Positions 46,446 to 61,218 of a stretch of 64,000 nt of DNA are shown in pieces. The number at the start of each line of letters is the position of its first letter. The stretch's first letter is position 1. The position numbers and the translations under genes are program-made. The notes under the pieces are model-generated. The model was not told the origin of the DNA. It searched no databases and saw only the letters and a program-made list of their open reading frames with translations. This DNA comes from Arthrobacter sp. 31Y (GTDB lineage: Bacteria > Actinomycetota > Actinomycetes > Actinomycetales > Micrococcaceae): NCBI RefSeq assembly GCF_000526335.1, contig NZ_JAFW01000001.1:248001-312000 (forward strand), written 5' to 3'.

Positions 46446-46514
46446 AGTCTAAGTACTCCTGATTTCGTGGGTATGGGGTTCTGTCGTGTCCCTGAAGCGG
46501 ACACAAACACAGAG

Positions 46515-46589
46515 TCGGGGTGACAGGATTTGAACCTGCGACTTCCTGCTCCCAAAGCAGGCGCTCTAGCCAAGCTGAGCTACACCCCG
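46515..46589 (-). tRNA. tRNA-Pro (anticodon TGG)
   Basis: 75-nt cloverleaf on the minus strand: acceptor CGGGGTG with CACCCCG, D-arm GCTCAGCTTGGCTAGAGC, anticodon stem-loop CCTGC-TTTGGGA-GCAGG, T-arm GCAGG-TTCAAAT-CCTGT. CCA not encoded. It is intact and not itself the insertion site. Confidence 0.97.
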
Positions 46590-46813: not shown

Positions 46814-47956
46814 TTAAACCACTCCCCTCATCAGCAGTCCGCCCATGGTCTTAATCGCGGACGATTTCTGCTCCTCTGTTACGTGCTTGTAGATGCCTAG
46901 CGTCACGATGGCCGACGAGTGGCCAAGTATCTGCGACACAACATTCACGTCCTCTTTTGCGTCGATCATCATCGTCGTAAACATGTGCCTGAGAGAGTGA
47001 ATCGTGTACCCACCCTCCCCCGTCGGTAGGCCGGCCTTCTTACAGTCCCGGTACCACCACTTATTGATCGTGCCATGCCCGATCGACCCACCTTTCCTCG
47101 GTGCCGGGAAAACCGGGTCGGACTGCTTAGCCTGGCGTAGCTGCTTGATGCTCAGGAAGTAGGCGGCCACAGATTCCTCCAGCGGCACCTCACGCTCCTG
47201 GTTCATCTTCACCCGCTCCTCCACGACGGCACCCTTCGATTCCGGCGTGGAGATTTTTGTGATGGATACAACGTTCCGGACGAAATCTATGTCGCTCCAA
47301 AGGAGCGCCGTGACCTCGCCCTTCCGAGCGCCGGTGGCTCCAAGCATCAGCCAAAGATGCTGGGACTGCTGCTTCTCGGTTGCGCTCATCAGTTTCGGGA
47401 AGTCGCTTCGCTGCACCGCCCGCCTTGGAGGATTCTTCTTGGGCAGCCTAATCGTGGAATCCCTGAGAGGGTTTTCGTTGATCAGCCTCACTGACGGTGA
47501 TGACGCCCACCGCAGCGTGGCCTTCACCATGTCAGCCACCCGCTTCCCCAGTGACCGCCCGCCGCGCGCGTACTTGGGCAGGTGTTTGGGCAGGTCGCGC
47601 ATGAACGAGTTCATGTCATCGAGGGTCAGCTGCTCGACTCTTATGTTCAGCCGCGGCTCGATGTGCAGCTTGAGTGCGCTCTCGTAGGACGTGAGTGTGG
47701 AGCCGGCCTTGTCCTGATGGGCGTCCATCCACATTCGCACCAGCTCTGGTAACCGCAGCTTCCGCTGCCTGGCCAGCGCCGCCAGGGACTTGGCGCCCTT
47801 GGCTTTGTCTCTCTCACGGATTGCGTCCTTCTCAGACTCCAGTCCGTACTGCGCGTATAGCTCGCCATCTACTGTGATGCGCATGTCCCACACAGTGGTT
47901 CCGTCTGCCAGTTGACGGCTTCCGATCCAGCCATCTCCATGCCTTGCCCGGCCCAT
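46814..47956 (-). CDS. int: Tyrosine site-specific integrase
   Basis: 380 aa from the ATG at ~47956 (MGRARHGDGWIGSRQLADGT); frame extends to 48019. Arm-binding N-domain, SAM-like core-binding domain (~80-170) and catalytic domain (~190-370) with Arg in GATGARKGEVTALLW, HSLRH, the second His/Trp-type position in GHSS and Tyr in LGIYKHV. All catalytic residues present, so it is probably active. It catalyses integration/excision at the att sites. It is divergent from xis. Confidence 0.95.
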   Translation of the reverse strand: MGRARHGDGWIGSRQLADGTTVWDMRITVDGELYAQYGLESEKDAIRERDKAKGAKSLAALARQRKLRLPELVRMWMDAHQDKAGSTLTSYESALKLHIEPRLNIRVEQLTLDDMNSFMRDLPKHLPKYARGGRSLGKRVADMVKATLRWASSPSVRLINENPLRDSTIRLPKKNPPRRAVQRSDFPKLMSATEKQQSQHLWLMLGATGARKGEVTALLWSDIDFVRNVVSITKISTPESKGAVVEERVKMNQEREVPLEESVAAYFLSIKQLRQAKQSDPVFPAPRKGGSIGHGTINKWWYRDCKKAGLPTGEGGYTIHSLRHMFTTMMIDAKEDVNVVSQILGHSSAIVTLGIYKHVTEEQKSSAIKTMGGLLMRGVV

Positions 47957-48022
47957 GCTCCCTCCATTCATTTCGTTTATAGTGCTTGGTTGTGTCGTGT
48001 AAAAACATGTTAGCATCATTGC

Positions 48023-49373: not shown

Positions 49374-49597
49374 GGCTTCACCTCCGGGTTGGGTCGAAAC
49401 TCGACCAGTACTTGGGTGCCCTCAAACGGGGCCGGTTCGAATGCGATCCTGAACTGACCGCTTTCCGGGTCCACGTCTTCGTCAAGCATCCTGACTGAAA
49501 CCTCTTGGAACAGACGGTGCATGACCATCAGCTTCAAAGGCACTACAGAATGGGCTGCGACAACTTTCCGGGCTGAAACTATCTGTCGGCCGCTCAC
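49370..49597 (-). CDS. Small phage protein (75 aa)
   Basis: MSGRQIVSARKVVAAHSVV ... ending FRPNPEVKP. Soluble; the two halves look like beta strands with FRIAFEPAPFEGTQVLVEF. 4-bp overlaps on both sides tie it to the RNA ligase gene upstream. Function unknown. Confidence 0.7.
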   Translation of the reverse strand: MSGRQIVSARKVVAAHSVVPLKLMVMHRLFQEVSVRMLDEDVDPESGQFRIAFEPAPFEGTQVLVEFRPNPEVKP

Positions 49598-50223
49598 GCA
49601 GCGAGGTCCAGTTCTGCCCGAGGGTCGACCGCAGCCTCCGTCTTGGACAGGTGATCGTTCTCGATCAGCACCTTGAACACTTGGCCCGTCTGGGAATGGA
49701 AGACGATGACGCCCTCCGGGACTCCGTCCCAGTCCGGGGCGGCTGCGGAGCCGAAACGAAGCAGGTCGGCCAGGGTCTGCTTGATCACCTCGGTGTCGAA
49801 CGTGTGGCGGGCAAGCACGGGCACAACCCCGAGTCCATCGACATTCTCCAGCGGCAGGTTTTTGTACCGCTCGACGTTGAACAGGGAGAATCGCTTCTCA
49901 CCGTGGGTGAGTCCGTAGCCGCGCTGAATGCCGCTCCCCCACCACTCACCGAAGTGACGCCCAGGGCCAAGTACGTCAGCCAGCTCGCCGGCGTTCTCGT
50001 AGACCCATCGGGCGAACCCGTAGTTGTCAGTATCCTTGCCGGGTGTGACCAGGCGGTTTCGGGACTGGGCGGCGACGCGTCCGTCCTTAGTGATGATGAT
50101 GGCGCCGTTGGTGCCGTCGATCTTCTCCGTGATCACCATGTTGCGGAACAATCGTGGCGTCTTCGGCCACTCCAGGAATTCGATGGGTTCCTGTTCGACG
50201 GCCTCAATCTGAATTTCGGTCAC
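49594..50223 (-). CDS. RNA ligase family protein (covalent nucleotidyltransferase)
   Basis: 209 aa from the GTG at 50223; AAGGAG precedes it and the GTGA overlaps the upstream stop. Ligase motif I is EKIDGTNG (Lys34 the likely AMP-accepting residue), then FGEWWGSGIQRGYG (motif III area), EGVIVFHSQ (motif IV) and VFKVLIEN (motif V). No OB-fold is present, so it is the minimal adenylyltransferase type like T4 Rnl2-family or Rnl5-like enzymes. It should seal RNA (or nicked nucleic acid) with 5'-phosphate and 3'-OH ends. Confidence 0.8.
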   Translation of the reverse strand: MTEIQIEAVEQEPIEFLEWPKTPRLFRNMVITEKIDGTNGAIIITKDGRVAAQSRNRLVTPGKDTDNYGFARWVYENAGELADVLGPGRHFGEWWGSGIQRGYGLTHGEKRFSLFNVERYKNLPLENVDGLGVVPVLARHTFDTEVIKQTLADLLRFGSAAAPDWDGVPEGVIVFHSQTGQVFKVLIENDHLSKTEAAVDPRAELDLAA

Positions 50224-50660
50224 GCAGACTCCTTTGCGAAGCGGTAGGCGGGGATGTTGTGGGGCTCGACCGGCTGGAAAACGTACCAACCAGGAACCTC
50301 TGGGTCTTCAGACCAGTCGTGGGAGTCCCAGTCGTACTGAATCTCGGGCAGCTCGTCAGCAAAGTCGTCGCCGTTCGATTCCCGGAAGGACTCGCCGTAC
50401 TTGCCGCCGGCCTGCCAATAGGACCAGCCAAACATTTGCCCGTCCGACTTCCGACGAATCACCTGCATGAGCGTCGTGCCCTGATACAGGTCGCCATCCG
50501 TGTGGGCATCAGTTGCCACGACTTCGAACCGTGACCGGAAAAGGTCATGCTCGTCAGGACTGGCGTCGCCGTAGCTTTCAAGCTGATCCCAAACGACGTC
50601 GTGACCAAGGTTCCCGCCGAACGCGACGAGGTCTGGTGTTTCAACGATGATTTCTGTCAT
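50220..50660 (-). CDS. Phage protein, function unknown (146 aa)
   Basis: MTEIIVETPDLVAFGGNLGH ... ending RFAKESA. Acidic, soluble, rich in Trp/Tyr toward the C-terminus (SWSEDP-like and PGWYVFQPV). The middle has QGTTLMQVIRRKSDGQMFGW, a strand-turn-strand resembling small single-domain phage proteins. Repeat R1 lies immediately upstream, and AAGGA gives a good ribosome site. Confidence 0.75.
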   Translation of the reverse strand: MTEIIVETPDLVAFGGNLGHDVVWDQLESYGDASPDEHDLFRSRFEVVATDAHTDGDLYQGTTLMQVIRRKSDGQMFGWSYWQAGGKYGESFRESNGDDFADELPEIQYDWDSHDWSEDPEVPGWYVFQPVEPHNIPAYRFAKESA

Positions 50661-50705: not shown

Positions 50706-51272
50706 CTATGCCGCGATGAATCCTGCTTTGCGATTCGTACGCCGTAGCTGTTGCTCTGCTGTCGAGAGCCTGTTGGCCAGGTACACGATGAAGTTTTGGT
50801 CGAAGTCAGTGGCCCGCGCCTGCTTGTATGGGGCGGTCACCTTCCACTTCAGCCGGTCCCCGCCGAACAATGCGTCGGGGTGGTATTCGATGAGTCCACA
50901 GCCTGCTGGCAGCTCATCCTTGGTGATCAGACCGGCAGGAGTGACATAGGCGAACCTGTCGGCGTGTGCCATCCAGGCTCGACGCTTGTCCTCTGTGTCA
51001 CGTTTGAAGTCGGCCCTGGTCACCTTGATTTCGAGCGCCATGCGCTCGTTCGGGACTTTCACACCCCTTCGTTTCAGGTTGATCAGCAACATGTCGATCC
51101 GCCGACGCTCCACCTCACGGTTGGCGTCGTACTTGCGCTTCCCCTTGTTCTGCGCAACAGCGTCAGGGTCGAACAAGGATAGTTCCCGCAACACGGCCCA
51201 GTGCGTTTGATGGGCTGTGTACTTGAGCAGGAGAGCCGATTCGATCGCTTTCGTCGTCTCACGTGCGTTCAA
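50706..51272 (-). CDS. PD-(D/E)XK nuclease-like protein, MmcB-like
   Basis: 188 aa from a TTG at 51272, preceded by AAAGGA. RIDMLLIN (Asp) and ALEIKVTRADFKRD (ExK) give the D...ExK nuclease signature, with HADRFAYVTPAGLI as the following strand-helix. This resembles MmcB/restriction-endonuclease-like proteins; a role in DNA repair or replication is likely, a DNA-cutting activity is inferred. No specificity domain visible. Confidence 0.65.
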   Translation of the reverse strand: MNARETTKAIESALLLKYTAHQTHWAVLRELSLFDPDAVAQNKGKRKYDANREVERRRIDMLLINLKRRGVKVPNERMALEIKVTRADFKRDTEDKRRAWMAHADRFAYVTPAGLITKDELPAGCGLIEYHPDALFGGDRLKWKVTAPYKQARATDFDQNFIVYLANRLSTAEQQLRRTNRKAGFIAA

Positions 51273-51884: not shown

Positions 51885-52265
51885 TCACGATGCGGCCTGC
51901 AGGATTTCGACGGGCACGTTGTTCCGGTAACTGACCTCAACGGCCACTTCCTCAAGCGCCACTGATTCGGCCCCGGCGCGTAGCTGAGCAGCGACCTCCA
52001 GCTGATACTGGAGTGCTCGAAGCAGCTCTTGGCAGGACTCGTCAGTGGACGTGTCCCACCCCTGGCCGATCAGATTGCAGGGTCCGCGGACGTCTCGGTC
52101 CCAGTCGATGATCGTGTACTCGTTGACACCAGCCGCCTCGAATGGTGCCTGGCGGGTCAGGATGACGAACCTCTCATCGGCCGCCCGCACAGTCCACCAG
52201 TTCCTGGTCCGGTGACCGTGTTCCAGCTTTACACGCCTGCCTACTGGCAAGTCGACGCGGTTCAT
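51885..52265 (-). CDS. Phage protein, function unknown (126 aa)
   Basis: MNRVDLPVGRRVKLEHGHRT, with an N-terminal strand-rich part (WWTVRAADERFVILTRQAPF ... YTIIDWDRDVRGPCN) and a helical middle (QELLRALQYQLEVAAQL). The N-terminal half looks like a small SH3/beta-barrel fold of the kind common in phage DNA-handling proteins, but that is a guess. It overlaps the oxygenase gene by 4 bp. Confidence 0.75.
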   Translation of the reverse strand: MNRVDLPVGRRVKLEHGHRTRNWWTVRAADERFVILTRQAPFEAAGVNEYTIIDWDRDVRGPCNLIGQGWDTSTDESCQELLRALQYQLEVAAQLRAGAESVALEEVAVEVSYRNNVPVEILQAAS

Positions 52266-52939
52266 TTGGTCACCCCATCGGCTTCGGCTCGGGCCGGATC
52301 GTTGCGGACCTCGTTGCGATCGAACATGTCCCAGTCGTAGTCGAACAAGTAGTTGTGGCTGTTGCCTGCCAAGTTGTACCTGCTGTTCGAGAACGACACC
52401 TTGAGGAACGAACGGACGCCACCCGGCGCCGGAATCTCGGGTGCCCTGTGGATTACGGACGAGTCCAGCCGAAGAAGCTGATTGTCGGGGTAGGTCCAGA
52501 TCGGATCAACACCGTCACACCGCGCGAGGTTGATCTGCTGAGTAAACTGCATGATCGACTCATTGTGGTCGTCGCTGATGTTGTGGAATTCCTGCAACGC
52601 GAAGTAGGTCGGGAAACGGTCAGTCCACACATAGTTGACGTCGTCGGTCCCAAACCCGTCCGAGTGCCAGCCGGGCCGGTTCAGCGGGTTACCCGGCGTC
52701 GCGAAACCACGCCGCATTGTGAGGTAGATGTACTGCCACTTGCCCAACGCGTCGAAGAGATAATCCTCGCGGTCAATGGCGCTCCAAATAACCTTGGAAG
52801 CGAATTGGAGTCGTTCCGGGATTCGAACTTCTGAGGACCCGGGCATGGAGATGGGAAGGTACATGTAGTGCATGAACTCCTTCCACTCAGGGAGCGGAAG
52901 ATTGCCACAGTCGATCGGCTCTTTGCCATACTCAGTCAC
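52262..52939 (-). CDS. Probable 2-oxoglutarate/Fe(II)-dependent oxygenase
   Basis: 225 aa. His92 and Asp94 in PGWHSDGFG, His164 in VIHRAPEIP and Arg176 in GGVRSFLKVSFSN give the spacing HxD ... H ... R expected for the double-stranded beta-helix fold, with R 12 residues after the distal His. No homolog is named. It is near the C5 cytosine methyltransferase gene, so it could oxidise 5-methylcytosine (TET/JBP-like), but a protein or small-molecule substrate is equally possible. Sequence-based, no search made. Confidence 0.6.
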   Translation of the reverse strand: MTEYGKEPIDCGNLPLPEWKEFMHYMYLPISMPGSSEVRIPERLQFASKVIWSAIDREDYLFDALGKWQYIYLTMRRGFATPGNPLNRPGWHSDGFGTDDVNYVWTDRFPTYFALQEFHNISDDHNESIMQFTQQINLARCDGVDPIWTYPDNQLLRLDSSVIHRAPEIPAPGGVRSFLKVSFSNSRYNLAGNSHNYLFDYDWDMFDRNEVRNDPARAEADGVTK

Positions 52940-53144
52940 TAGTCACCAGCACTTCCTGCCATACAGCGTTGGCGCCACTGGCGTGCCATTCATTCAGGCA
53001 GCTCTGGGCCGTGCAGCCGATTCCTTTCACGACGTCGTACTCCACCCAAAACTCGGGCTGCGCGTGGCAGCACGGAGTCAGGAAGTCGCGTGTGACCAAA
53101 TCAATCGGTTGCCGCTCGGTCGTCTCCGTCTTTTTGGCTGTCAA
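52932..53144 (-). CDS. Small zinc-ribbon-like phage protein
   Basis: 70 aa from a TTG at 53144, which overlaps the upstream stop by 4 bp. Contains TPCCHAQPEF and GIGCTAQSCLNEWH, so two Cys pairs about 20 apart suggest a zinc ribbon. A longer frame to 53177 lies over the neighbour. Overlaps the oxygenase gene by 8 bp. Confidence 0.65.
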   Translation of the reverse strand: MTAKKTETTERQPIDLVTRDFLTPCCHAQPEFWVEYDVVKGIGCTAQSCLNEWHASGANAVWQEVLVTSD

Positions 53145-53422
53145 TCGCGGTCCCTCCAGTCCGTCGTGCCGCGCCAAACGACACGGGCCTCATGCCCTGC
53201 GTCAACGAGGTTCGCGGTCATTGCCTCGGCAGTGTCCAAGCTGTCCAACTGGCTGGTGCCGTTTGCTTCGGGCAGACTCCATGCCACGCCCCACTCAGTC
53301 TGGAGCTGCGCTGGAGGGTGTTTGGCGACAAGGTCGGCCAGGTCATCGGAGGGGATCACGACGACCCCGCCTTCCGCGTCCTCCAGAATCTCTGTAAGGA
53401 CGTCGTGCAGTGTTCTCTGCAA
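53141..53422 (-). CDS. Phage protein, function unknown (93 aa)
   Basis: TTG start at 53422 with AGGAG upstream; the long frame opening at 53581 overlaps the methyltransferase gene and is not used. Helical N-terminus (LQRTLHDVLTEILEDAEGGV), then VWRGTTDWRDRD at the end. Starts 17 bp after the methyltransferase stop; co-transcribed. Confidence 0.65.
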   Translation of the reverse strand: MQRTLHDVLTEILEDAEGGVVVIPSDDLADLVAKHPPAQLQTEWGVAWSLPEANGTSQLDSLDTAEAMTANLVDAGHEARVVWRGTTDWRDRD

Positions 53423-53439
53423 ACTCTTCTCCTCTTTCT

Positions 53440-54669
53440 TTAGGCGGCCAGCTCGAATGAGTCGGCCACGATGCCTGCAATGTCGCGGGCTGCAGCTGGT
53501 GTCACAGCGTTGCCCGCCTGCATGGTCCGTTCCTTCTTGGTGCCCAGGATCGTGTAATCCCGGGGGAAGTCCATTCCCCACATCTGCTCGTGGGGTTGGA
53601 TGAGTCGGAACTCGACGTCATCCAGGTCGGCCCGCGTGTACGAGACAAGGCCGTGGTGGTTGCCGCCGGCAGTGATCGTGCTGAACGGGCCAGCATCCAC
53701 CGGCATAACATTGGCGTTCCGCCGGAACGTCACAAGGCCATGCCGGTCTCGTGTTGTGAACGTGGAGAACGGCTCAGTCACAGGTTTCGGATGGGGGGTC
53801 CCGTAGTACTGAGTCAGTCCAGGCTGCTCCCCGAACTTGTTCACGAAATCCACGATCTGCTGCTGGGTCCGGTCGGCCAGTGGCCGCTTACGATCACCCA
53901 GCCGGACCCCTTTCAGGCTCCAATCGATCGCATCCGATGCCGGGCGAACACTGGGCTCCAGCACCCTCGCGCAGTCCGACGCGGGACAGCGGTACACGTA
54001 CTGTGCCCGGTACTTCCCGGCTAGCCGGCCTGGCTTCTTGAACACCTGCAGGCATTGCACTCTGCCGTGACTCGGGCAGTCGGCGTACGGGCGCAGCCGG
54101 TCGAAGTCCGGTGCCCGGTTGCCTCTCAGCCAGAACACGATGTAGACCCGGTCGCGGGATTGCGGTGCACCAGGCCCGTAAGCCTGAGCGTGCATGCTGT
54201 TCAACGACACGATCCGGTGCTCGTAACCAAGGTCCGTCATGGACTGCAGCCAGCCCCTGAACGGTTTCCAAGCAGTCACCTCCACGACGTTCTCGGTCAT
54301 GATGGCGGCGTACCTGTGCACTTCTGCGAACCGCGGCACGTCGTACATGGTCGCCCGGGACCTTTGCGCGGCCTCATCCGGGATCACGTTCTCCCCGTCC
54401 CATGAGTCCCGCTTCACGCCTTTAGCTACCGTGAAGTTTGTGCACTCAGGTGAAGCCCAGAGAAGATCGGTTCTAGGCGTGTACTCGGGCCTGATGTGCG
54501 CAATGTCAGCGCACGCATGCTCGGTGTCCGGGTGGTTGTGCGAGTGGGACTGGATCGCCCGCTCCCAGTGGTTCAGTGCCAGCCTCACCTGGAGGCCAGG
54601 CACTTGGGCGATGCCCGTGGATGACCCGCCGGCTCCGCAGAAGAAGTCCGACACGGTCAGTCCGCTCAA
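53440..54669 (-). CDS. C5-cytosine DNA methyltransferase
   Basis: 409 aa. Motif I SDFFCGAGGSSTGI (~8-21), motif IV WASPECTNFT (~76, catalytic Cys; variant of PPCQ with Glu before Cys), motif VI ENVVEV (~127), motif VIII QSRDRVYIV (~172), motif X GNAVTPAAAR (~388). The target-recognition region contains paired Cys (CPSHGRVQC and CPASDC) that may bind zinc. SPEC-type catalytic loops are familiar from actinobacteriophage methylases. Probably protects phage DNA or makes the base for further modification by the nearby oxygenase. Overlaps both neighbours by 4 bp upstream. Confidence 0.9.
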   Translation of the reverse strand: MSGLTVSDFFCGAGGSSTGIAQVPGLQVRLALNHWERAIQSHSHNHPDTEHACADIAHIRPEYTPRTDLLWASPECTNFTVAKGVKRDSWDGENVIPDEAAQRSRATMYDVPRFAEVHRYAAIMTENVVEVTAWKPFRGWLQSMTDLGYEHRIVSLNSMHAQAYGPGAPQSRDRVYIVFWLRGNRAPDFDRLRPYADCPSHGRVQCLQVFKKPGRLAGKYRAQYVYRCPASDCARVLEPSVRPASDAIDWSLKGVRLGDRKRPLADRTQQQIVDFVNKFGEQPGLTQYYGTPHPKPVTEPFSTFTTRDRHGLVTFRRNANVMPVDAGPFSTITAGGNHHGLVSYTRADLDDVEFRLIQPHEQMWGMDFPRDYTILGTKKERTMQAGNAVTPAAARDIAGIVADSFELAA

Positions 54670-57462: not shown

Positions 57463-57963
57463 TTAGACGGCGACTGCCTCCTGCACAGCCTTAGGCTCAT
57501 CCTCAAACCAGCCCTCAACCACAGTGGTTTCGATGCCTTCCTCGGCCCAGAGCGCAAGCACATTCGGGTTGTCGTCCCACGCGTGGATGATGTTGTAGTG
57601 CTGGCGCAGACCAGCCAGAATCTCCTGTTTGACCACACGGTCAGGACGCCCGTCGCCGGTTTTGCGGTGCAGCTGCTGATCGAAAGGCACCCCGTTGAGC
57701 AGCATCCACCATTTGGTGAGCTGCCTATATTTCTCCTGCCGGGCTGTCACGATGATGACCTTGTGACCCTGAGCGCGCGCCTCGTTTGCAGCAGCCAGGA
57801 CGTTCAGGTTTGGTGGGCAGTCGACCGAAAGCTCGTGGAAGCGGTCGAAGTTCCTGTGGCCCGGGTTGTCTGGGTGGTTTCTGATCACCAGGTGCCGGAT
57901 TGATCGGACGTCGCAGAGAGTGCCGTCCATGTCGAAGATGATCGCAGTGGGCTTGTCGGTCAC
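57463..57963 (-). CDS. HAD-family Pnkp-type polynucleotide 3'-phosphatase
   Basis: 166 aa. HAD motif I AIIFDMDGTLCDV (~8-20), motif II GHKVIIVTARQEKY (~72-85), Lys motif GRPDRVVKQEI and motif III HAWDDNPNVLALW (~130-142). The order and the sequence GVPF...GDGRPDRVVKQEI closely follow the C-terminal phosphatase domain of T4 polynucleotide kinase; no kinase domain is attached. Expected job: removal of 3'-phosphate or 2',3'-cyclic phosphate from RNA or DNA ends. It lies 2 bp after RtcB, which uses the same ends, so the two may share a repair role. Confidence 0.82.
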   Translation of the reverse strand: MTDKPTAIIFDMDGTLCDVRSIRHLVIRNHPDNPGHRNFDRFHELSVDCPPNLNVLAAANEARAQGHKVIIVTARQEKYRQLTKWWMLLNGVPFDQQLHRKTGDGRPDRVVKQEILAGLRQHYNIIHAWDDNPNVLALWAEEGIETTVVEGWFEDEPKAVQEAVAV

Positions 57964-57965
57964 GG

Positions 57966-59141
57966 CTAGTCTCCCTTCACGTTGATGATTTGGCGGAGCG
58001 TGTACTTGATTTCGACCAGGGTCTCCGCGTCCTCCATCACTTGATCGATCGGCTTGTACGCCGCAGGGTGCTCGTCAATGAACTCTGCCGAGTCCTTGTA
58101 CTCGATACCGGCCATGCGGTCCCGAAGGTCGTCCTGCGTGAACAGCTTGCGGGCCGCGCTGCGTGAGTGTTCGCGGCCCGCGCCGTGAGGTGCCGAGTTG
58201 AGGGACAGCTTGGACCCCTTACCGACCACCACATAGGACTTGTCACCCATCGAGCCGGGGATCAGCCCCCAGACACCCTCGGATGCGTCGATCGCACCCT
58301 TCCTCGACAGCCACACGTCCTTTCCGAAGTGACGTTCCTGCTCCGTGTAGTTGTGATGGCAGGTCACGTAGCGCTTCGATCCGGTTGAGTCGATGCCTGC
58401 CCAATCCTTGAACGCAAGGACAACGCGGGTCATCATTTCGTTGCGATTGAGCCGGGCAAATTCTTGCGCCCACTTGAGGTCATTGATGTAGCGCTGGAAC
58501 TCCTCGGTCCCTTCGACCAGGTAGGCGAGGTCACGGTGTGGGAGGTTGATGAAGTGCTGGGCGCAATAGTCCTGCGCCACTTTGATGTGGTGCTGGGCGA
58601 TCTTGTTGCCCACGCCGCGACTGCCCGAGTGCAGGAACAGCCAGACGTCGTCATTCTGGTCCAGCGACACCTCGATGAAGTGGTTGCCGGACCCAAGCGA
58701 GCCCAGTTGCAGCCGCCAGTTGGCAGCGTAACCATCAGGGTTGACTCCCAGTTCGCGGGCAGTCTCCTCCAGCCGCTCCACTGCGAACTCGGCGGACGGC
58801 GTCATGGTGCGGTTGTACTTGCCCGCCGAGAGCGGGATCGCTTCCTCGATTACCCGGCGGAGCCTCGCGCGGTCCAGCCCCTCCAAATCGGTCGCGTTGA
58901 GCCCAGTGTGCATCGCATCCATGCCGCAGCCAATATCGACACCAACGGCCGCCGGCATGATGGCACCCAGCGTCGGAATCACGGACCCAACCGTTGCTCC
59001 CTTCCCAAGGTGCGCGTCCGGCATGAGCGCCAAGTGCGGGTGAATGAACGGCATGCCCGCCGTCATGATGGCTTGTTCGCGGGTGTTGTCGCCCAGAATG
59101 GTCGCGTAATTTACCAGCTTCGGGGTCAAGTGTTCGGGCAT
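57966..59141 (-). CDS. rtcB: RtcB-type RNA ligase
   Basis: 391 aa, about the length of E. coli RtcB. Joins 2',3'-cyclic or 3'-phosphate to 5'-OH RNA using GTP. Metal and catalytic motifs: VGVDIGCGM (~75), LGSGNHFIEV (~152), LHSGSRGVGNKIAQHH (~172), CHHNYTEQERH (~262) and PHGAGREHSRSAARK (~323, with the guanylylated His). No frameshift or missing key residue. Overlaps the next gene by one base (TAATG). Confidence 0.95.
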   Translation of the reverse strand: MPEHLTPKLVNYATILGDNTREQAIMTAGMPFIHPHLALMPDAHLGKGATVGSVIPTLGAIMPAAVGVDIGCGMDAMHTGLNATDLEGLDRARLRRVIEEAIPLSAGKYNRTMTPSAEFAVERLEETARELGVNPDGYAANWRLQLGSLGSGNHFIEVSLDQNDDVWLFLHSGSRGVGNKIAQHHIKVAQDYCAQHFINLPHRDLAYLVEGTEEFQRYINDLKWAQEFARLNRNEMMTRVVLAFKDWAGIDSTGSKRYVTCHHNYTEQERHFGKDVWLSRKGAIDASEGVWGLIPGSMGDKSYVVVGKGSKLSLNSAPHGAGREHSRSAARKLFTQDDLRDRMAGIEYKDSAEFIDEHPAAYKPIDQVMEDAETLVEIKYTLRQIINVKGD

Positions 59142-59844: not shown

Positions 59845-61002
59845 CTACTTGTTCTCGCTGGGAAGGCGTACGGGCATGATCATGTGGCGGTAGACCGAGT
59901 CCGATTCAGCCGAGTCGTCACCGGCAGTCCATGTGCCAGGTTTCGGGCCGGCGGGCTGGGACAGGCGGACCGTGTCCGCGGTGATTGCTTTCAGCATGTC
60001 GAGCAGATATCCGGGGTTGTAACCGAACACACGCTCATCACCGTGGTTGAAGCCACGGTCATACTCTGTCGGGACCAGCGGCGACTTAGCTTCGGGGTCC
60101 GCTGCCACCATGACGCCACCCTCCTTGAGGGTGAGGTGGACCGGCTTGTTCCGCTCTGCCAGCTTGGACGCGACTGTCACAGTTTCGAGCAGCTTAGCCC
60201 GGTTCATCACTGCAACCACTTCGCTGGTCTGCCCAAACAGGGAACGAATCTTCGGGTAGTCCCCATCAAGCCCCAGGATCGAGTACACGTTGTCGCCAGA
60301 GCGGACATGCAGTGTACGATCGCCGTCGTACGAGAAGCCAGCGAGCCCCTTGGAAAGCTGCTTCGCAACCTTGGCCCACGTCTTGGCGCCGATAAGGACA
60401 GTGAACTCCTCGGAGAAAGCGCCTCCAACAGCATCGGATGCCAGGCGGTAACGGTCCGTGGCGAGCATGACTACCTCATTCAGATTGAACTCAAGCCGGA
60501 CGCCAGTAAGGATGGGGAGCGTGTCATCTGTCGACGCCGTGACCGCAACACCGGCCATGGCCGTGGAGAACTTCTCAGCATCAAGCAGGGCCGAAGGGTT
60601 GGGCGCAACCGGCAGGTCCGGGTATTCGGCCACGGGAGCGGTATCGACGGGAATCTCGTAGCCGTCACAAAGCAGCTCAACCTTGTCGCCGTTCTGACGG
60701 ATGGTCACCCAGACGGCCTTGTTCTTGCCCAGCACCGGCTTGAGGGTGGTCACAGCCCACTTGTGCGGGATGAGGAACGGCTTCACCTCGTCCGGATGAC
60801 GCGTCACTCGCACATCAGCGGACGTTGCGTAGTCGGTGGCTTGCATGCGGAGCTGCCCACGCTCGGTGAACACCTTCACGAAAGCAAGGATCGGCACAGG
60901 CGGTTTCGTGCTGACAGCCGGGGAAACGTTGGCGAGAGCGTCCAACCACTCCTGGCCGGTTGCCGTGGCAGTGGTGTTCGCGGTGAGTACTGCAGTGGAC
61001 AT
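59845..61002 (-). CDS. dnaN: Phage-encoded DNA polymerase III sliding clamp (beta)
   Basis: 385 aa from the ATG at 61002 (MSTAVLTANTTATATGQEWL), with GAAGGAGA upstream. Three-domain clamp pattern with the hallmark PILTGVRLEFNLNEVVMLATDRYRLA-type stretch (seen as PILTGVRLEF and LATDRYRLA, ~165-190) and a C-terminal MIMPVRL end typical of the peptide-binding pocket. Clamps are mostly chromosomal, so a phage version may recruit host polymerases to phage DNA or displace the host clamp. The frame extends to 61146 but the codons before 61002 do not look coding. Confidence 0.9.
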   Translation of the reverse strand: MSTAVLTANTTATATGQEWLDALANVSPAVSTKPPVPILAFVKVFTERGQLRMQATDYATSADVRVTRHPDEVKPFLIPHKWAVTTLKPVLGKNKAVWVTIRQNGDKVELLCDGYEIPVDTAPVAEYPDLPVAPNPSALLDAEKFSTAMAGVAVTASTDDTLPILTGVRLEFNLNEVVMLATDRYRLASDAVGGAFSEEFTVLIGAKTWAKVAKQLSKGLAGFSYDGDRTLHVRSGDNVYSILGLDGDYPKIRSLFGQTSEVVAVMNRAKLLETVTVASKLAERNKPVHLTLKEGGVMVAADPEAKSPLVPTEYDRGFNHGDERVFGYNPGYLLDMLKAITADTVRLSQPAGPKPGTWTAGDDSAESDSVYRHMIMPVRLPSENK

Positions 61003-61218
61003 TGTTGTCTCCTTCGATAGTGCTTGATTGGCAGGGTGGTCGGTACGGTGGACCCCGGTTCGCAATGTCCGGTTCATTAGTTCCCCACACGGTTTCCAGA
61101 CCGCCACCCAGTACCCATGACGGGAATCGAACCCGCCTCTCAGCAACCAGCTGGGTCGCCAGCGAATGCTGACTCAGTTTTTGTCGCGATGCCTTGACGC
61201 CCCCGTTTCACTGCATCG
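61003..61218. other. Leader of dnaN with an orphan tRNA 3'-half-like segment
   Basis: 216-bp gap. On the minus strand 61136-61112 reads GCGGGTTCGATTCCCGTCAT, a canonical T-arm and start of an acceptor strand (CATGGGT), but I find no matching 5' acceptor (ACCCATG) or D/anticodon arms upstream. No ORF supported. It may be a decayed tRNA or coincidental T-arm. Confidence 0.4.

Follow-up and report, generated by a model that had tools for sequence, protein, structure and literature searches.

What does the predicted oxygenase of an Arthrobacter prophage act upon: the DNA of the phage, as its position near a DNA methyltransferase gene had suggested, or another substrate? The question is raised by a stretch of 64,000 nucleotides from the Arthrobacter sp. 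31Y genome (here the window; G000:C1:248001-312000 of a genome totalling 5.08 Mb), in which a prophage encodes a 225-amino-acid (aa) putative 2-oxoglutarate (2OG)/Fe(II) oxygenase. The original prediction was that a C5 cytosine methyltransferase encoded nearby and a TET/JBP-like oxygenase together hypermodify phage DNA. The two genes were confirmed to lie where it had placed them, in the same direction and with two small open reading frames (ORFs) between them, one of these zinc-ribbon-like by eye. Profile matching and structure modelling place the 225-aa protein in phrog_1843, a phage family of predicted 2OG/Fe(II) oxygenases that is as yet uncharacterised. We tentatively favour, with a probability of about 0.4, a hydroxylase directed at RNA, at tRNA or at translation, as the neighbours of the family include tRNA genes and RNA-repair genes.

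A predicted 2OG/Fe(II) oxygenase of family phrog_1843

The oxygenase had originally been assigned by eye, and this assignment was upheld by structure prediction, by fold matches and by conservation of the HxD...H...R motif. The structure model (predicted local distance difference test, pLDDT, 92.0; predicted template modelling score, pTM, 0.89) was matched in Foldseek and VIA, among the matches listed, mostly by 2OG oxygenases, in keeping with a double-stranded beta-helix. Prolyl hydroxylases made up 39 of the 50 rows listed by the VIA fold search, and the remainder were mostly other 2OG enzymes. The motif residues (H92, D94, H164 and R176, in Met1 numbering) did not vary in any of the 98 aligned relatives; the first three are probably the Fe(II) ligands and R176 is probably the 2OG arginine. 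Taken together, the fold, the Fe(II) triad and the 2OG arginine predict a 2OG/Fe(II) oxygenase. The match to phrog_1843 was essentially full-length (residues 3-214 on profile positions 6-211 of 222), and a family-specific C-terminal signature of N193, N196 and R212 was likewise invariant across the 98 rows.

The comparison with known enzymes separated this protein from the families that its motif brings to mind. The profile search matched phrog_1843, whereas the Tet_JBP profile, which we take to be present in the Pfam library, was matched neither by the window protein nor by 24 relatives. Like the TET/JBP 5-methylcytosine (5mC)/thymine dioxygenases, which presumably share the HxD...H...R arrangement of 2OG oxygenases, the protein has this motif and a C5 methyltransferase nearby; it differs from them in the unmatched profile and in that the methyltransferase is not a conserved partner of phrog_1843 oxygenases. 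TET and JBP chains were absent among the fold-search matches listed, which cannot exclude an unlisted family. The AlkB-type nucleic-acid dioxygenases share the fold class, as 3rzm, a 'direct DNA repair protein' that we take to be the AlkB homologue ABH2, ranked third in Foldseek (E 6.3e-4), but identity to 3rzm was 7 % and the AlkB profile was unmatched by the window protein and the 24 relatives. The HIF prolyl hydroxylase and Pseudomonas prolyl-4-hydroxylase fold showed identities of ~10 %, and the N193, N196 and R212 tail marks the phrog_1843 family off from it. The window oxygenase matched zero Pfam families at E<=1 and no NCBIfam profile, and the 24 relatives matched no Pfam oxygenase family, only DUF1317 (two members) and Beta_propel (one member), with a best E of 0.027. 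A sequence search of solved structures gave a best E of 0.18 with the single sequence and none at E<=10 with a 67-row profile.

The family was found in 48 phage records, and 742 proteins matched at E<=0.001, of which the best 120 were viewed. It ranges over phages of actinobacteria and of alpha- and gammaproteobacteria, plus jumbo phages, with hosts that include Microbacterium, Rhizobium, Agrobacterium, Acinetobacter, Erwinia and marine bacteria. Distant members from Acj9, SCTP-2 and the jumbo phages Kaldavass and BF all still matched phrog_1843. This cluster carries no assigned function in PHROGs v4, and the public annotation of the relatives is mostly hypothetical, with one 'DNA endonuclease V' and one UniRef 'Phytanoyl-CoA dioxygenase'. 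Our literature search found no paper using the name phrog_1843 or the word DUF7352 (a partner family described below); searches on phage oxygenases with tRNA or RNA repair, and on phage TET/JBP or hydroxymethylcytosine enzymes, gave no title on the family, and the passages retrieved from PMC8670742 concern a different enzyme. Here, then, is an enzyme family that lacks a model in the curated domain libraries, as far as the window protein can tell, despite its wide spread among phages.

tRNA and RNA-repair genes near the oxygenase

Neighbouring genes at 94 oxygenase loci were compared with those at 98 control loci, omitting near-copies, the split locus L115 and the fragment L109. Neighbour clustering used 74 of 92 loci after dereplication at 85 %, with L001 and L002 omitted as copies, and whole-record scans for RNA ligase, RtcB and PF00145 used 50 of these 74, mostly longer contigs. 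Control contigs were picked by a thymidylate-synthase gene (so named in the source record; ThyX by eye) and numbered 21 + 50 = 71; two kin of the Microbacterium phage Fork (L124 and L125) were scanned as control contigs and excluded from the counts. A further set of 25 public phage records is a subset of the 48, and 8 of the 25 are also within the 50-record set. These 25 represent ~15 phage kinds, with relatives remaining (three Microbacterium, four OLIVR5-like, three Paadamvirus, three jumbo and two DSS3 phages).

Rfam tRNA matches were sought in 27 large records (~150 matches listed), of which 24 were usable, as G010 and W08 had no tRNA match and none of the four matches of G014 was among those listed. 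The oxygenase lay in the quarter of the contig nearest to a listed tRNA in 14 of the 24 records (median fraction 0.14, Fisher p 0.0086), and p was 0.026 after removing three relatives. The same-record controls, for which one thymidylate synthase and one RNA ligase were taken per record, fell within the nearest quarter in 1/14 (thymidylate synthase, PF00303) and 1/12 (RNA ligase). Across the full comparison, a tRNA was present within 2 kb in 12/94 oxygenase loci vs 4/98 controls (p 0.037). In phages Kaldavass, XbC2 and BF, and in loci L011, L018, L034, L036 and L042, the oxygenase gene falls within a tRNA array or next to one. The association between oxygenase and tRNA is present in large phages and is not universal. 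The phage contig L018 spans 353 kb and has 65 tRNA matches, and just after its oxygenase lies a P-loop kinase (L018:10939-11910) whose C-terminal part is 2H phosphoesterase-like by eye.

The second recurrent setting is formed by RNA-repair-type genes, defined here as RtcB, RNA ligase, polynucleotide kinase, PNKP phosphatase and CCA-adding enzyme. The prophage in the window encodes RtcB, a PNKP-type phosphatase and an RNA ligase, all within ~5 kb of the oxygenase. Within the window's clade of the family tree, 8/20 distinct loci (seven phage types) had such a gene within 5 kb, one of them a CCA-adding enzyme alone, compared to 3/98 controls, a contrast that is inflated because the seeds came partly from the same loci. 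The corresponding count for the whole set was 13/94. In Microbacterium phages the oxygenase lies immediately ahead of polynucleotide kinase and RNA ligase; the order in Fork is helicase, 110-aa gene, oxygenase, polynucleotide kinase and RNA ligase. OlinDD, a Fork relative that is not among the 48 oxygenase records, has the order helicase, kinase, small gene and ligase, so that the Fork branch probably gained the 110-aa gene and the oxygenase together, as a two-gene insertion, unless the other branch lost them. A kinase adjoins the oxygenase in XM05, and an RNA ligase lies two genes upstream of it in DSS3 phages.

The oxygenase tree comprised 98 rows, 94 of them with context; the near-copies L096, L099, L119 and L123, which lack it, were not counted for changes. 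The window's clade (26 rows; bootstrap 87, Shimodaira-Hasegawa-like approximate likelihood ratio test, SH-aLRT, 85) contained zero DUF7352 neighbours. The repair label was carried by 13 rows and the tRNA label by 12, requiring 9 and 10 changes respectively, and the juxtaposition of the oxygenase with repair and tRNA genes thus arose repeatedly. The label for a nearby C5 methyltransferase changed 6 times on 8 rows and that for DUF7352 15 times on 35.

DUF7352 as a candidate partner

Neighbour clustering without a prior list revealed one strongly recurrent family, DUF7352 (PF24043), in 30/74 loci and directly upstream of the oxygenase in 27 (for example L068:9721-10029). It was present within 2 kb in 35/94 oxygenase loci vs 1/98 controls. 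In the reverse direction, a search from oxygenase-linked DUF7352 seeds found the oxygenase in 76/78 loci, and in the two others the contig stops just past DUF7352. In 75/76 loci the oxygenase came directly after DUF7352, in the same direction and with a gap of <=3 bases, 31 of them with a 4-base overlap as called; the 75/76 figure applies to the DUF7352 subfamily reached from oxygenase-linked seeds, in 78 loci that were not dereplicated. Dereplication left 63 of the 76 DUF7352-linked oxygenases, 39 of them <85 % identical to any earlier member. One locus has reversed gene order and a 410-base gap, and one oxygenase is a 60-aa piece. In ORM_20 and OLIVR5 the DUF7352 domain forms the end of a longer protein.

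The pairing has its bounds. Four public phages with DUF7352 (L309-L312) had no oxygenase at E<=10 in the fetched 5 kb, and no DUF7352 was found at E<=0.1 in the window or in L003-L005. The pair offers a handle on the substrate of the oxygenase.

The C5 methyltransferase and DNA hypermodification

The methyltransferase of the original prediction, identified there by an SPEC-type motif IV, was confirmed by its PF00145 and phrog_116 matches (Table 1). Its sequence holds FCGAGG, SPEC (motif IV cysteine), ENV, QSRDR and GNAV, where the motif names are those that we take to apply. The hypermodification explanation holds that this enzyme makes 5mC, which the oxygenase converts to 5-hydroxymethylcytosine or a further product that escapes restriction. 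Both genes stand in one run in the window, and they recur together in two IMG/VR contigs: in L006 (62 kb) both are identical to the window copies, although this contig may be the same genome, and in L007 the oxygenase is 80 % and the methyltransferase 99 % identical to the window's. The pairing is by this recurrence more than chance. The L007 oxygenase is present also in Arthrobacter sp. 18067 (L096).

Whether the methyltransferase (METHYLTRANSFERASE) is the partner of the oxygenase was addressed by seeking PF00145 in whole records. It was found in 11/50 oxygenase records vs 3/71 control contigs (2/21 + 1/50; p 0.0036), controls that may differ in lifestyle from prophages, and this enrichment keeps the 5mC idea alive. 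When present, the methyltransferase lay within 5 kb in 6/11 records, with a proximity p of 0.011 that rose to 0.061 once two window-type prophages were dropped. Searching with our own seeds placed it within 5 kb in 8/94 oxygenase loci vs 0/98 controls (p 0.003), and five of these eight loci adjoin a DUF7352-oxygenase pair. The AlkB-like 'direct DNA repair protein' among the fold matches also speaks for DNA as the substrate. Against this, 23 of the 25 public oxygenase records had no C5 methyltransferase, and in the remaining two (0/8 + 2/17; p 0.60 vs controls) it lay ~20 kb off. Within the window's clade it was found in 2/20 loci within 5 kb and in 5/20 within 10 kb. Eight other loci with a closely related methyltransferase (L150-L157, best segments 74-84 % identical) had no oxygenase in the fetched flanks of up to 10 kb, and no Arthrobacter or Gordonia phages were among the 48 oxygenase records, though the methyltransferase is common there. 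The original prediction had seen no glycosyltransferase in the window, and none was found over cut-off in the 56 distinct prophage proteins scanned (some small ORFs lay outside the scan); a Glyco_transf_4 line on the HAD protein, at E 0.0074, was below cut-off.

The methyltransferase is, by these counts, not a conserved partner of the oxygenase. The original interpretation is supported in part: the predicted enzyme class holds, whereas the greater share of the evidence weighs against a TET/JBP-like partnership. With the Tet_JBP profile unmatched and with DUF7352, tRNA genes and RNA-repair genes as the strongest neighbours of the family, we consider conversion of 5mC quite unlikely. We instead read the methyltransferase as an independent gene with an anti-restriction role, comparable to the ArdA antirestriction homologue that this prophage carries just to the right of the window (L003:4204-4791, minus strand; genome C1 312204-312791; PF07275 E 2.4e-15).

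Proposed role and alternative substrates

Under the explanation that we favour, the oxygenase would hydroxylate RNA, with tRNA as the likeliest target, or else some other component of the translation apparatus. It would join the phage genes that keep tRNAs working under host RNase attack, represented in the same prophage by RtcB, the PNKP-type phosphatase and the RNA ligase, and the hydroxylation may protect a tRNA against being cut again or reinstate a modification. The HAD phosphatase would serve in RNA 3'-end healing. In many proteobacterial and environmental phages the oxygenase and DUF7352 may act as a two-protein unit. A bolder version, which we regard as doubtful, is that across phages phrog_1843 hydroxylates tRNA (or rRNA), that the hydroxyl, placed within or close to the anticodon loop or at a newly repaired end, blocks recutting by host anticodon nucleases, and that it is a two-subunit enzyme in DUF7352 phages; were this so, an oxidative step would be added to phage RNA repair. 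Action upon tRNA would more generally mean that phage RNA repair comprises protective modification as well as sealing. According to passages of PMC7302621, phages of cluster ED encode an RNA ligase and a polynucleotide kinase that may counter RNA-cleaving defence. Passages of PMC7824862 treat phage RNA repair, as an answer to host RNA attack, apart from AlkB-like oxygenases; the oxygenases that they name are tied to DNA marks and to a capsule or metabolite cluster and not to RNA repair. The window prophage resembles the known phage RNA-repair sets in its RtcB, phosphatase and ligase, and differs from them in its oxygenase, as the passages of PMC7824862 name none for RNA repair.

Several observations weigh against an RNA-directed role. 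The seeds for the 5-kb neighbour counts came partly from the oxygenase loci themselves, which favours these loci, and neither a tRNA nor an RNA-repair gene was present within 5 kb in 63/94 loci. At this distance the tRNA contrast was not significant (20/94 vs 12/98 controls, p 0.12); some tRNA neighbours may be host genes, as at L097 in a bacterial contig, and location alone is no proof of function, because large phages keep many accessory genes in their tRNA arrays. A clear genome-wide enrichment of RNA-repair genes with the oxygenase was not upheld in the 50-record set, in which RNA ligase was weakly enriched (14/50 vs 10/71, p 0.068) and RtcB was not (9/50 vs 3/21, p 1.0). Proximity within contigs gave p 0.020 for RNA ligase (0.062 without window-type prophages), no better than for the C5 methyltransferase, and p 0.094 for RtcB. 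The presence of RNA ligase in 15/25 public oxygenase phage records, compared to 2/25 for the C5 methyltransferase, counts for an RNA-directed role, but these records include near relatives and jumbo phages, and most of the large phages with an RNA ligase have it at a distance of tens of kb or more. The repeated independent juxtaposition seen on the tree fits a functional linkage and equally fits accessory regions. Finally, an RNA-repair gene within 5 kb was found in 0/35 DUF7352-linked loci vs 13/59 others (p 0.0016); a single enzyme seems to occur in either of two settings, with DUF7352 or with repair genes.

Other substrates would account for part of this pattern. The preponderance of prolyl hydroxylases among the fold matches would suit a protein hydroxylase acting on a translation factor, a ribosomal protein or DUF7352 itself, which we hold to be unlikely. 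A JBP-like enzyme that oxidises unmethylated thymine or cytosine in DNA, with no need of a methyltransferase, would explain the many oxygenase records that lack a C5 methyltransferase gene, and several loci lie among DNA-metabolism genes. The unmatched Tet_JBP profile argues against such an activity, as does the lack, by eye, of a glycosyltransferase-like cluster among the recurrent neighbour clusters listed, and we judge it very unlikely. If the oxygenase did act on DNA, by whichever path, it would represent a new route to modified phage DNA. The neighbours could also be incidental to an accessory metabolic gene that hydroxylates a small molecule (an amino acid, a nucleotide or a metabolite), an explanation that fares poorly in our estimation, since the tRNA and RNA-repair context recurs and the pairing with DUF7352 is tight.

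The prophage locus

The prophage has its left edge at the integrase and extends beyond the right end of the window, and the adjacent tRNA-Pro is probably its attachment site. Genes near the oxygenase and the methyltransferase are all on the minus strand and mostly abut or overlap, suggesting that the run from methyltransferase to oxygenase may form a common transcript.

Table 1. Features of the window discussed in the text (positions in the window)
Feature	Position	Strand	Evidence or remark
Predicted 2OG/Fe(II) oxygenase, 225 aa, GTG start	52262..52939	-	phrog_1843 E 1.7e-32
C5 cytosine DNA methyltransferase, 409 aa, TTG start, phrog_116 type	53440..54669	-	PF00145 E 7.6e-22 (over cut-off); phrog_116 E 1.1e-64
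81-aa protein, CC...C...C cysteines (zinc-ribbon-like by eye)	52932..53177	-	Overlaps oxygenase start
Small ORF between methyltransferase and zinc-ribbon-like gene, start uncertain	53141..53581	-	ORF list
126-aa protein, phrog_14402 (function unassigned)	51885..52265	-	E 1.7e-21; 4-base overlap with oxygenase, downstream side
RNA ligase, ~2 kb downstream of oxygenase	49594..50289	-	PF09414 E 1.5e-12, over cut-off
HAD phosphatase, polynucleotide kinase/phosphatase type	57463..57963	-	PF25109 E 1e-20, over cut-off
RtcB RNA ligase	57966..59141	-	PF01139 E 4.1e-114; phrog_1075 E 9.5e-142
Phage-type integrase	46814..48019	-	PF00589 E 9.8e-23; adjoins tRNA-Pro
tRNA-Pro	46514-46589		Next to prophage integrase

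Of the two small genes between methyltransferase and oxygenase, the 81-aa zinc-ribbon-like protein matched neither Pfam nor PHROG at E<=1, and its relatives at E<=1 were found only in copies of these prophages, among the loci compared then. It was rejected as an obligate partner of the oxygenase, as L007, which retains it, has an extra small reading frame between them. The other small ORF as listed overlaps the methyltransferase, so that its real start is probably later, and the stretch 53174-53581 gave no significant Pfam or PHROG match.

The prophage further encodes a phrog_5429 'DNA repair protein' (50706-51272, minus strand) upstream of the RNA ligase, relatives of which lie near the oxygenase also in L079 and L089, and a DNA polymerase III beta clamp (window 59845-61146, minus strand; PF00712, PF02767 and PF02768). 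In L004 (14229-16571, minus strand), four tandem ORFs of ~180-200 aa have similar starts (three MDQET; the fourth holds VDQQT) and, by eye, a hydrophobic N-terminal stretch, and are likely a paralogous array.

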